From NCBI GenBank assembly GCA_024638285.1, contig JAHEKP010000002.1, positions 1 through 64,000 on the forward strand: a stretch of 64,000 nt of DNA. Direction: 5' to 3'. Numbering within the stretch: position 1 is the first letter of the stretch; every line of letters starts with the position of its first letter. Below, piece by piece: positions 44,229 through 48,285 of the stretch. The stretch is from Cryomorphaceae bacterium (GTDB lineage Bacteria; Bacteroidota; Bacteroidia; Flavobacteriales; Schleiferiaceae). Below the pieces are notes generated by a model that saw nothing but the letters and a program-made list of their open reading frames with translations, was not told where the DNA came from and did not search any database. Position numbers and translations under genes: made by a program.

Positions 44229-44305
44229 GGTCCGGTAGTTCAGTTGGTTAGAATACAAGCCTGTCACGCTTGGGGTCGCGAGTTCGAGTCTCGTCCGGAT
44301 CGCCA
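44229..44305 (+). tRNA. tRNA-Asp (GTC), CCA encoded
   Basis: A cloverleaf can be drawn by hand. The acceptor GGTCCGG pairs with CCGGATC, the D arm is GTTC/GAAT, the anticodon stem is CAAGC/GCTTG with loop CTGTCAC (anticodon GTC), and the T arm is GCGAG/CTCGT around TTCGAGT. A discriminator G and CCA end it. It is a single-gene unit with its own promoter and terminator. Only tRNA gene seen in the window. Confidence 0.97.
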
Positions 44306-44368: not shown

Positions 44369-44794
44369 TTATCTTCTCCCTTTAGGTTTCTTGGCCCGGC
44401 TCTTATGCAACTCACAATAACGATGATCAGTCAATGCTTCTCGTTCACATTTTGCACCAGTTTTTGTTTTAAAGACGCATTTACGGAATGCCTTGGGTCT
44501 AGAAGTGGTGCTTTTGGTTCGTAGGAACGGCAACGCACTTGCTCGATCAGGTAAACACACGGAACAGGGTAAAAGACCTCTATCCAATGCCTGGCGTTCA
44601 TCAACTTTAATTTGACCGTTTTTTAGGTACCTGCATCCGTCAATATGGTAACGTGCACCTGAAGGATTAATTCCTCTAGTTGAGAAAACCACTATTTCTT
44701 CGACCAGAGCTGAATCGATAGCTTCCTGCGCATTAACTTTAATGCTGACTAAACTAAGCAAGACCAATGCCTTTATGATTCTTCGAAACTTCAT
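44369..44794 (-). CDS. Secreted small Cys/His-rich protein with two putative zinc sites
   Basis: The protein has 141 residues from the ATG at 44794 (MKFRRIIKALVLLSLVSIKVNAQ, signal peptide); an ATG at 44812 is possible but lies before the -7 box. Two metal-site patterns are visible. The first is His50-x3-Cys54 with Cys77-x2-Cys80 (YHIDGCRYL...GLLPCSVCLPD), resembling the Ada-like module attached to secreted nucleases. The second is Cys106-x9-Cys116-x10-Cys127-x2-His130 (KTGAKCEREA...YCELH), followed by a very basic tail. No enzyme domain is present. Function unknown; a periplasmic or surface nucleic-acid or metal role is only a guess. Confidence 0.7.
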   Translation of the reverse strand: MKFRRIIKALVLLSLVSIKVNAQEAIDSALVEEIVVFSTRGINPSGARYHIDGCRYLKNGQIKVDERQALDRGLLPCSVCLPDRASALPFLRTKSTTSRPKAFRKCVFKTKTGAKCEREALTDHRYCELHKSRAKKPKGRR

Positions 44795-46133
44795 ACGAGC
44801 AAAGCTATTCATTCTGTTTTTTGTCTGCGCATTTTTGACAGGATTCTCGCAATCTACAAGTATCGATTTTGATTACCTGCAAGTAATAGAGGCGCCTAAA
44901 GGTCCAATTGGCTTCATTGGTACTTCTGCAAACTATCATATTAATGATGGAAGTACTTATTTCGGAATTCGATTAAACAACGCTGCAGTAGGCACTCGCG
45001 CTGGGTATTACACCTTTGGTTACCAGTTAGGTAGTAGGTTTATGGTGACTGAGGCACTCAGTCTTCACCCGAAATTAATGTTTACTACAGGAGGCGGCGC
45101 AGAGAGCAATGACGGCTCAGGAGGATTTTTAACCTCAGCATTGCTTTTGAACTATGCTCAAGGCCAATTTAACTTGGGTTTAGGCGGACAATACAGCTAC
45201 GTAAGTACAGGCGTCATCCAAGGATGGAGTCCTATGTTTAGTCTAAGTTTTATGCCGGATTTCAGTCGTAAGCCGTATGAGGTGTCTGAAGCACAGGTGT
45301 TTACGAATATCATATATTCCGTTTGGAATGAGCACAATCGAAATACAGGTTTTGTAGGGGTAGGAGGAAGGCTCTTCGCTGACCGAACGTATAAAAGCGT
45401 TTATCTCACTGCCGCCGTTACGGATCTAGGTGGATATATGGATGTTTATGGCGGATACGGCGTATATCAAAATATTGGAGATTTTAGAGCATTAGCAGAA
45501 ATTAACTTAGGCACAGGGGGCGGGGGTCGCGCTCCCGCCGGTGGTGGTGTACTAACAGGGATTCAAGGTGAATTGCAATGGCATACAAGAGGAAAATTTA
45601 TTGGCTTAAGTTCCGGTCTGCTTAAATGGGTAGATGGACCATTCTACTTTGGCTTTACAGGAGTCCATACAGGAATTGACTTTAACTATACATCGACACA
45701 AAACGAGAACGGCTTTTTGCCTATGGATCTGAGTATCGAGAATAGTATTCGTACGTACTTAGGTGAATCTGGCTTCTCAAATCTAGGTGTTGCATTTAGG
45801 TTGTTTAAAAAAGGCGTTGTTCAACTCCGGGGCGAGAGTTACTGGGCCTTTACAGACGGTAGGGGTGCTTATGCGGAAGGATTGTTTGGCCTGCGCATCC
45901 AACCAAACTATTTGTTCGTAGAAACTCAGGTGGGCGCTGGAGCAGGGGGTGGAATTAACCTATGGGGCGCTGCTGCGCTAGCCTTTGTCAATGCGGGTTT
46001 TGAAATACCTGTAAACGATTATTGGGATGTGACAGGCCGCGGTATCTATAACGTATATTCCTCTCAGGCATTTCCTACTTACGGGTGGCAATTGGGCATG
46101 ACCTTTAATATTCCTTTTAATACCCAATTCTAA
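44775..46133 (+). CDS. Threefold-repeat glycine-rich surface protein A
   Basis: The protein has 452 residues from the ATG at 44775 (signal peptide ending GFSQ, residue 26). Three repeats of about 142 residues are recognisable by their glycine cores: TTGGGAESNDGSGG (104-117), GTGGGGRAPAGGG (246-258) and GAGAGGGINLWG (387-398). Each core is preceded by a strand pair (for example GRGAYAEGLFGLR) and followed by amphipathic strands, giving an all-beta protein, probably outer-membrane or extracellular. No T9SS domain is seen. Its stop overlaps the ATG of a paralogue (TAATG). I know no named family. Confidence 0.8.
   Translation: MILRNFIRAKLFILFFVCAFLTGFSQSTSIDFDYLQVIEAPKGPIGFIGTSANYHINDGSTYFGIRLNNAAVGTRAGYYTFGYQLGSRFMVTEALSLHPKLMFTTGGGAESNDGSGGFLTSALLLNYAQGQFNLGLGGQYSYVSTGVIQGWSPMFSLSFMPDFSRKPYEVSEAQVFTNIIYSVWNEHNRNTGFVGVGGRLFADRTYKSVYLTAAVTDLGGYMDVYGGYGVYQNIGDFRALAEINLGTGGGGRAPAGGGVLTGIQGELQWHTRGKFIGLSSGLLKWVDGPFYFGFTGVHTGIDFNYTSTQNENGFLPMDLSIENSIRTYLGESGFSNLGVAFRLFKKGVVQLRGESYWAFTDGRGAYAEGLFGLRIQPNYLFVETQVGAGAGGGINLWGAAALAFVNAGFEIPVNDYWDVTGRGIYNVYSSQAFPTYGWQLGMTFNIPFNTQF
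44800..44807 (-). promoter_or_regulatory. Predicted -7 promoter box of the Cys/His-rich gene, near-leaderless
   Basis: The minus strand reads TAGCTTTG, five bases before the ATG at 44794, so the transcript would have almost no leader. The box lies inside the divergent surface-protein gene. Confidence 0.4.
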
Positions 46134-47566
46134 TGCGCAGGTTGTTGCTCCTCCTTTTCGTTGTAGCCCATCAATACGTTTTGGGTCAGGGGACTTCCAT
46201 GACTCTTATGTTTGAGCCGTTGGAACCCTCTAATGACATGATGTGGGTGACCCAGCGCTTTGAGTTAGTTAAGGATTATACGAAGACAAAAACCTCTATC
46301 TCTGGGGGTTTAGAGACCCAAAGTGCCATTTTGGGTAATTATGGTGGTTTCTATGCCTTCGGATTTACAGGAGGTGTTTATCAATATTTACGTCCATGGG
46401 TATTCGCTCATATAGGCGGATCTATAGCCTCAGGAGGTGGTGCAGGTGCCCCGGACGGCGATGGATTAATGTACCGTGGGTTTGCGGGAATGAGTATTAA
46501 GAGTAAATACGGGATTGTGGATGTAGCCTACAATCACATTAATTTTCCTTCAGGAGCTATTACCTCGAATCATATATCCATCGGCTACACATATGTATTG
46601 CCTTATCGAATAGAATACAGCGGCCACAACAGGTATTATCCAACCTACTTCGAATTAGTCACTGGTCTTTGGTTCTTAGGGCCGGAAGATGCTTCCCGCA
46701 ACAGTGAACCCGTGCAAAGTGCTTATGCAGGTGTGCGTGTTGGGCAGTATTTGAACACCATTCATACCGTTGGAGCTGAACTGCAACTAGGGGCCGGTGC
46801 ATTAGGCAACATTGACGGGTATATGAATTATTCCATGGGGTTACGATTCAATACACCTTCACAACGCCTTTTCTTCCGCACCCATCTAGGCTCCGGCGGC
46901 GGTGGCGGCGTATACACAGGTGGCGGGATATCTACAATGGTAAGTGCTGGGGCCCAGTTTGGTGGGCACCAATTCAGCGTAGGACAATGGACGGCGCTAA
47001 GCGATGAAGCTTCTATTCCCTTCGTTTCCTACAGTCGACATATAGATTTCAAGAGCTCTTTAGGTTTTCATTATGGAGGTGCGGAAAGCACTTATAAAGA
47101 CTCACGCGAGATAGCCTTAAAAGTGTTGGCAGGAGTGGGACAACAGCGTTCTCCTGGAATAGATAGAAACGGTTATCCTTACAATCCTATGTCAGGTATA
47201 TCCATGGGGCTAGGCATTGAGGCTTGGAGCAATGAGAACTATTCATTGGATACCTATGGTCATACGTTCTGGGCGGCCAGTGGCGGTTACGGTGCCTATG
47301 CAGAGGGGTTGTTCAGTGCAGCCTTTATGAAAAACAGCGAGACTTTTAGATACGGAGTAGACTTAACTTCTGGCATTGCGGGTGGTGGTGGAATAGAGGT
47401 GGGTTCTGGCCTGATGATTGCACCTGGAGTACAGGTGGAATGTAAAATTGGCCCCTTATCAAATCTCAAAATGAACCTCAGACAAAAATACTTCCCAGGA
47501 GGAACCTACATTCCCGTATATTTTGGTGTGGAACTAATTCAATCCTTGCCTGTTCACTTGTGGTAA
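46133..47566 (+). CDS. Threefold-repeat glycine-rich surface protein B, paralogue of A
   Basis: The protein has 477 residues; the signal peptide ends VLGQ (residue 19). The same three-core design as its upstream neighbour is seen: ASGGGAGAPDGDG (99-111), GSGGGGGVYTGGG (253-265) and GIAGGGGIEVGSG (414-426), with spacing of about 155-160 residues. The phrase GGYGAYAEGLF (384-394) closely matches GRGAYAEGLF of protein A at the equivalent place before the third core. Sequence identity elsewhere is low, so the duplication is old. Translation is coupled to A by a one-base overlap. It is probably a beta-rich outer-membrane protein; function unknown. Confidence 0.8.
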   Translation: MRRLLLLLFVVAHQYVLGQGTSMTLMFEPLEPSNDMMWVTQRFELVKDYTKTKTSISGGLETQSAILGNYGGFYAFGFTGGVYQYLRPWVFAHIGGSIASGGGAGAPDGDGLMYRGFAGMSIKSKYGIVDVAYNHINFPSGAITSNHISIGYTYVLPYRIEYSGHNRYYPTYFELVTGLWFLGPEDASRNSEPVQSAYAGVRVGQYLNTIHTVGAELQLGAGALGNIDGYMNYSMGLRFNTPSQRLFFRTHLGSGGGGGVYTGGGISTMVSAGAQFGGHQFSVGQWTALSDEASIPFVSYSRHIDFKSSLGFHYGGAESTYKDSREIALKVLAGVGQQRSPGIDRNGYPYNPMSGISMGLGIEAWSNENYSLDTYGHTFWAASGGYGAYAEGLFSAAFMKNSETFRYGVDLTSGIAGGGGIEVGSGLMIAPGVQVECKIGPLSNLKMNLRQKYFPGGTYIPVYFGVELIQSLPVHLW

Positions 47567-47583: not shown

Positions 47584-48285
47584 ATGAAAAAACTCCTACT
47601 ACTCTTCGCCCTTTTCACAGGTTTTGCTGCTGTGGCACAAGTGAATCACATAGACCATAATGGCATGAAGCAGGGAAAATGGGTGAAAACATATGAGTCC
47701 GGTAAGAAACGTTATGAGGGTTATTTTAAAAATAATGTACCCGTTGGAACGTTCACATACTACTTCGAGCGCGAAGGTGGTATTATGTCGGAAATCAATT
47801 ACCGCGGCGAAACAGGGATAGGATTCGCAAATGCGTTCCACACGAACGGTACGTTGCAGGCGGAAGGATTGTATAGAAATCAATTGCGTGACAGCACTTG
47901 GCGTTATTTTGATAAACAAGGTGTTCTCACACAAAGTGAAGCATTTTCTGCGGGTGTCTTAGATGGAGCGCAAGTAACCTATTATGAAAACGGTAAAATT
48001 GCTGAGAAGAAAATTTACGAGAAAGGCGCGCTCGAAGGCATTTGGCTCCGAAAATGGGAAGATGGCACGCTGCGCACGAAAGGTTTGTATAAAAACGGTA
48101 AGCTGAATGGCGAATGCACCTATTACAATGAGGAAAGTAAACTGGTAGCAAAGGGATCGTATAAAAACGACAAGAAACACGGGACTTGGTTTTATTTCGA
48201 AGACAATAGAGTAGAACGTACAGAGGAATACCGTTACGGAGAATTGGAAAGTGAAACCACGTATGACGCTGAAGGAAAAGAGTAA
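47584..48285 (+). CDS. Secreted YwqK-like MORN-repeat-variant protein
   Basis: The protein has 233 residues. A signal peptide ends AVAQ (about residue 19), then about seven MORN-variant repeats of 22-24 residues follow. They have the pattern YxNGKxxGxWxxYxxxGxxxxxxxY, for example [20 protein letters not shown] and [13 protein letters not shown]. The family is often called a YwqK antitoxin, but no toxin gene is nearby and this copy is exported, so that label should not be taken as function. Such beta-strand repeats probably serve as surface or periplasmic binding scaffolds. Its 3' end overlaps mnmA. Confidence 0.8.

Follow-up and report, generated by a model that had tools for sequence, protein, structure and literature searches.

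A probable family of outer-membrane barrels built from a triplicated eight-strand unit, with one paralogue apparently moving between marine species

Introduction

The origin of large outer-membrane beta-barrels is an open question, and a natural triplication of an eight-strand unit gives a direct test of it. The stretch of DNA analysed here (the window, 64,000 nucleotides) comes from an uncultured marine bacterium and carries two adjacent genes, A and B, that had been predicted from the letters alone to encode threefold-repeat, glycine-rich surface proteins. The locus raises the question of what these proteins are, and the direct test posed by their family is whether each chain forms one 24-strand pore or three small barrels; if true, either the single 24-strand form or the three-barrel form would be a kind of repeat unreported among solved prototypical barrels. 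Here, we report that an eight-strand unit has probably been triplicated within the chain, giving a pseudo-threefold 24-strand barrel or three barrels, and that one of the two paralogues moves between species.

The gene pair and its neighbours

A and B are both intact and co-directional, and the stop codon of A and the start codon of B overlap in TAATG with one base common to both. Each product has a hydrophobic, signal-peptide-like N terminus, which is modelled as a helix by AlphaFold2. Thus, the coupled genes with signal peptides in the original prediction are real on both counts, the overlap and the N-terminal helices being seen. An alternative start of A is the upstream ATG at 44742, which would give a protein of 463 aa.

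44775..46133, + strand: gene A, 452 aa, predicted 24-strand outer-membrane beta-barrel
44775..44852, + strand: signal-peptide-like N terminus of A, residues 1-26 (sequence; helix 2-19 in the model)
46133..47566, + strand: gene B, 477 aa, predicted 24-strand outer-membrane beta-barrel
46133..46189, + strand: signal-peptide-like N terminus of B, residues 1-19 (sequence; helix 2-14 in the model)

The pair is flanked on one side by a TamB gene and a nucleotidyltransferase/HAD gene and on the other side by a MORN-repeat gene, beyond which lie genes that we take to be mnmA and then a subtilase gene (from reading the sequence, not from a profile run); the gene order around A/B is maintained throughout the genus. 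The gene directly downstream of B (47584-48282, + strand) encodes a MORN_2-repeat protein that partly resembles the LIC20035 adhesin model (E 2.9e-12, far under the cut-off of the model). A gene for a secreted-looking protein of 147 aa (44369-44812, - strand) overlaps the start of A head-to-head by 38 bases, so that the two signal-peptide coding regions are mutually antisense; this open reading frame is conserved from residue 1 in 12 genus genomes with 59-97% identity. Between it and the nucleotidyltransferase gene, the stretch at 44235-44296 has a 60-bp match to other contigs of G063 and G069 (78-80%) and is possibly a small dispersed repeat.

The internal repeat

The glycine cores and the GAYAEGLF element were found at the positions predicted: GGG runs are present at residues 106, 248 (and 256) and 391 of A and at residues 101, 255 (and 263) and 417 of B, and GAYAEGLF is present at A364 and B387, with the third core coming after it in both proteins. 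By contrast, the predicted strand-turn-strand order around each core understated the repeat, i.e. each module is predicted to have eight strands.

44853..45263, + strand: A module 1, residues 27-163, eight strands (model, module profiles, module-only search, self-alignment)
45090..45098, + strand: A glycine core 1, strand 5-6 loop of module 1 (sequence, model)
45264..45698, + strand: A module 2, residues 164-308, eight strands (model, module profiles, module-only search, self-alignment)
45516..45527, + strand: A glycine core 2, strand 5-6 loop of module 2 (sequence, model)
45699..46130, + strand: A module 3, residues 309-452, eight strands (model, module profiles, module-only search, self-alignment)
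45864..45887, + strand: A GAYAEGLF, in the strand 3-4 loop and the start of strand 4 of module 3
45945..45953, + strand: A glycine core 3, strand 5-6 loop of module 3 (sequence, model)
46190..46603, + strand: B module 1, residues 20-157, eight strands (model, module-only search, self-alignment)
46433..46441, + strand: B glycine core 1 (sequence, model)
46643..47050, + strand: B module 2, residues 171-306, eight strands (model, self-alignment)
46895..46909, + strand: B glycine core 2 (sequence, model)
47105..47560, + strand: B module 3, residues 325-476, eight strands (model, module-only search, self-alignment)
47291..47314, + strand: B GAYAEGLF (sequence)
47381..47392, + strand: B glycine core 3 (sequence, model)

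In alignments of the family profile (92 sequences) with itself, the eight-strand shift, i.e. module n against module n+1, extended over 282 columns with an E-value of 2.8e-31, and the sixteen-strand shift, i.e. module 1 against module 3, had an E-value of 5.5e-12; two-strand shifts were not significant (E 0.06 or worse). The predicted triplication of a beta-module of about 140-160 residues is borne out by these two shifts. Moreover, module profiles matched each other pairwise with a probability of about 98% (E 2e-12 to 6e-17). Among single sequences, same-number modules scored 5.7 (A1-B1), 5.7 (A2-B2) and 8.8 (A3-B3) sd over shuffles compared with at most 3.9 sd for off-diagonal pairs, and thus A and B are colinear across all three modules; within a protein, single-sequence similarity was weak (A1-A2 3.0 sd, A2-A3 below zero).

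In the pooled unit alignment, a G-aromatic motif precedes strand 4, the glycine core lies between strands 5 and 6, and an aromatic-glycine strand and then the closing strand follow the core. GAYAEG is invariant among 46 aligned relatives; the glycine cores, DGxG and GAYAEG are invariant in the members from Flavobacteriales, and similar loops are present in those from green sulfur bacteria. Three units were detected in 92/92 relatives, a set that was gathered with full-length profiles and is therefore biased. In a module-only search of 295 genomes, units again came in threes and no other unit count was found, with five of the six units in the window's own two genes above the threshold. The traits of a triplicated eight-strand family, i.e. 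three units, a strand 5-6 glycine core and a G-aromatic motif before strand 4, are all present. In total, these observations support an internal triplication of a beta-module of 140-160 residues that predates the split between A and B.

The internal repeats of solved prototypical outer-membrane barrels are all two- or four-strand shifts (Franklin et al. 2018, PMC6340704). The A/B family resembles these barrels in that strands were amplified by duplication and the repeats are visible in profile self-alignment; it differs from them in that its repeat consists of eight strands and occurs three times. Weak hairpin similarity is common to outer-membrane barrels (PMC6340704) and 2/92 reversed sequences matched the module profile, as might be expected if A and B were ordinary barrels grown by hairpins and their threefold pattern reflected generic hairpin similarity and a glycine-rich composition. 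However, the self-alignment is significant at eight- and sixteen-strand shifts only, and every pair lines up both in the order of its motifs and at the module ends, making growth by hairpins extremely unlikely.

The predicted fold

AlphaFold2, supplied with 46 window and locus sequences, predicted 24 strands arranged as 8+8+8 in A (mean pLDDT 81.4, pTM 0.69) and 24 strands arranged as 8+8+8 together with two three-residue bridges in B (pLDDT 84.8, pTM 0.73). In the models, each GGG core sits in the strand 5-6 loop of its own module, and the predicted structure is one of 3 x 8 strands rather than a barrel free of internal threefold order, in line with the original prediction. Coevolution pooled over the three units recovered all seven within-unit hairpins (0.9 to 5.5 sd) and, because it draws on the same family as the AlphaFold alignments, is only partly independent of the models.

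On the alternating faces of the strands, charged residues account for 1-4% of the outward positions compared with 18% of the inward positions, and this inside-outside contrast was larger than in all 1000 shuffles. Both proteins have an even number of amphipathic strands, 24 each. In Foldseek searches against the PDB, the matches listed were outer-membrane barrels (E about 1e-6); superpositions on known large barrels were poor (TM 0.2-0.3, rmsd 17-25 Å), possibly a sign that the overall shape is unusual. Based on the amphipathicity of the strands and the matches to outer-membrane barrels, A and B are very probably integral outer-membrane beta-barrels.

This assignment departs from the original prediction of a surface module of an adhesin-like kind. 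Signal peptides, a beta-rich and glycine-rich composition, repeats, and the MORN-repeat protein directly downstream of B would all suit a soluble or cell-surface adhesin-like repeat that forms no membrane barrel, but such a module is very unlikely, given the amphipathic strands with an almost chargeless outward face and the outer-membrane barrels that make up the listed structure matches. Moreover, Pfam and NCBIfam scans detected no surface-anchoring or sorting domain.

Comparison with known families

As predicted, the proteins fall in no recognised family: a Pfam search with A and B gave no match, and neither A, B nor their relatives matched a curated Pfam or NCBIfam family. Similarly, sequence searches of Pfam, NCBIfam and the PDB returned no meaningful family, whether the query was a single protein, the profile of the whole family or that of the module, and the open-access literature on 24-strand or multi-barrel relatives contained nothing about the A/B family. 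Pfam OMP_b-brl (PF13505) matched 4/46 relatives weakly (best E 1.2e-5) and did not match A and B; it is a model of a single small barrel, whereas members of the A/B family are three units long.

TonB-dependent receptors, which are 22-strand barrels, gave the best Foldseek E-values (about 1e-6), but with TM values of 0.2-0.3. These receptors have a plug domain before the barrel; by contrast, the strands of A and B start right after the signal peptide, 452-477 residues leave no room for a plug, and neither protein had a Pfam match. The fimbrial ushers FimD and PapC are 24-strand outer-membrane barrels with a plug and soluble domains. They have the same number of strands as A and B but lack such a threefold repeat, and the superposition was poor (TM 0.21); no Pfam family was found on A or B and no usher family on their relatives.

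As summarised in PMC6340704, duplication of OmpX by design gave a larger working pore (Arnold et al. 2007). That eight-strand doubling was made in the laboratory, whereas the A/B family is natural and has three copies; no match to OmpX was found. To our knowledge, barrel growth by eight-strand duplication is otherwise represented only by the engineered OmpX.

One barrel or three

On balance, we lean towards A and B being old paralogues in an unnamed barrel family, with three-unit chains that most likely each form a single 24-strand barrel. The module count of three, both in all 92 relatives and in the module-only search, speaks for a single closed unit rather than beads on a string, and the pTM values suggest that the modules of the models are placed fairly confidently relative to each other.

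Alternatively, each unit could close on itself, in which case one chain would place three separate, adjacent eight-strand barrels in the outer membrane, connected by periplasmic linkers. Compared with the turns within units, the stretches between units are longer and of low confidence (pLDDT about 60-75), and the end strand of each unit resembles a terminal strand in sequence; moreover, the superposition on single large barrels is poor, and with three small barrels there would be no unplugged wide pore to explain. Yet the unit number is always three, pTM values of 0.69-0.73 suggest that the placement between units is confident, and strands 1 and 8 of a unit do not coevolve. Coevolution of the closing strand was at background both ways, i.e. 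-0.1 sd within the unit and +0.3 sd to the next unit. We consider three separate barrels to be unlikely, though a serious alternative.

For the preferred single barrel, the three head-to-tail eight-strand units of each chain would close into one 24-strand barrel. As a rule, the N and C ends of outer-membrane barrels are in the periplasm. With both ends periplasmic, the glycine-rich strand 3-4 and strand 5-6 loops, which are short and nearly invariant, would face outside, and six such loops, two per unit, would ring the mouth of the barrel with pseudo-threefold symmetry. The barrel could function as a wide channel or an export/import portal for a large or unusual substrate, with the glycine loops forming or gating the entrance. 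As the chains cannot accommodate a plug domain, a partner or a gate would be required if the 24-strand pore were open. Finally, A and B may be produced together and act as a pair, as suggested by their overlap in one transcript-like unit and by several Flavobacteriaceae keeping two copies. Neighbours, family matches and papers gave no clue to the substrate.

Distribution and age of the family

Relatives were identified in other families of the order (f11 and f15), in other Bacteroidota (f36 and f92) and in 13/399 genomes of Flavobacteriaceae; the family includes named Polaribacter and Wenyingzhuangia strains. They are also present in 15/86 genomes of green sulfur bacteria (family f32). The FMO bacteriochlorophyll protein, which identifies f32 as green sulfur bacteria, was found in the two f32 genomes checked and had no match in the f36 genome, the f92 genome or 14 controls. 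The search for the tandem pair in other Flavobacteriales found relatives but not the arrangement: in the 8 of the 13 Flavobacteriaceae carriers with two copies, these lie at separate chromosomal sites or on different contigs, and the tandem A/B pair was only seen in the window's genus.

In the family tree, B groups with f11 and f15 to the exclusion of A (support 98), while A is on a long branch and its exact placement is unsure. Because B groups with f11 and f15 and not with A, the A/B split predates the genus and a recent tandem duplication is unsupported. The original prediction that the module was triplicated and the gene then duplicated was therefore right about the order but does not hold as a recent tandem event: the triplication precedes the A/B split, which in turn precedes the genus.

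Chromosomal neighbours differ from family to family, with no neighbour shared among Polaribacter, other Flavobacteriaceae, green sulfur bacteria and f36, and thus there is no hint of a function from outside the genus. A paralogue of Polaribacter sp. Hel1_85 (L097:4852-6387) is located after genes that read as fdhD and formate dehydrogenase-like genes.

Replacement of B between species

The comparison of genus members revealed a pattern beyond what the original prediction could see, i.e. one paralogue, B, moves by gene-sized homologous replacement.

45900..47565, no strand: exchanged tract, comprising the last part of A and the whole of B, with its left edge about 45,850-45,950 and its right edge where B ends

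In six distant genus members (G085, G078, G065, G074, G069 and G075), B is 91-96% identical to the window's B at the protein level compared with 59-79% for A and 37-79% for the neighbours; divergence at fourfold sites is 19-34% for B and 55-80% for A and the flanking genes. By contrast, B of G066 and G077 has diverged from that of the window (42-44%). Sliding identity is about 60-70% up to a point near 45,900 inside A, exceeds 90% beyond it and drops again at the end of B, and these abrupt edges are common to several assemblies; in G075, in which an additional gene, X, intervenes between A and B, the left edge is close to the start of B. Tested on the B alignment, the flanking-gene tree is rejected (delta lnL 128, AU p 1.8e-59). 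The 3' end of A likewise rejects this tree (AU p 0.0005), but it does not reject the one built from the remainder of A, and for this end the evidence of exchange is therefore the jump in identity. Altogether, these sequence comparisons indicate that homologous recombination between species of the genus repeatedly replaces B and the 3' end of A.

The genomes of the genus all come from metagenome or single-cell assemblies and several contigs end inside B, as would be seen if the exchange were an artefact of metagenome-bin assembly; alternatively, B could be a highly expressed gene under strong codon constraint. However, contigs from separate projects, 58 to 116 kb long, carry B in their interior, and the shared left edge is inside A, the other part of which is saturated. 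Moreover, the fourfold sites of B itself have reached saturation in G066, G077, G067 and G082, which excludes a general codon constraint. We therefore regard artefact or codon constraint as highly improbable.

Simple loop variation driven by phages or grazers was considered as the driver of exchange and is disfavoured, because B is conserved on its outer side, where the loops are less variable than the periplasmic turns (0.07 vs 0.17). The spread of a favoured form of B between species would fit these data better than selection for variable loops, and gene-sized exchange of B among marine species suggests selection for sharing one protein form across species. Searches of plasmid and phage collections, with one query each, gave no match.

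Gene X encodes a secreted-looking protein of 151 aa, lies between A and B in four genomes (G075, G067, G066 and G077) and is absent from the window. A Pfam search with it gave no match. The idea that it is a lone unit of the A/B family was unsupported (1.9% probability against the module profile); its 52% probability against the whole-family profile came mostly from the signal peptide and one weak stretch. Judging from its size and sequence, it is possibly a small barrel. Its copies are as follows.

L053:7444-7896, - strand: gene X
L054:1014-1466, + strand: gene X
L055:7522-7974, + strand: gene X
L056:4298-4750, - strand: gene X
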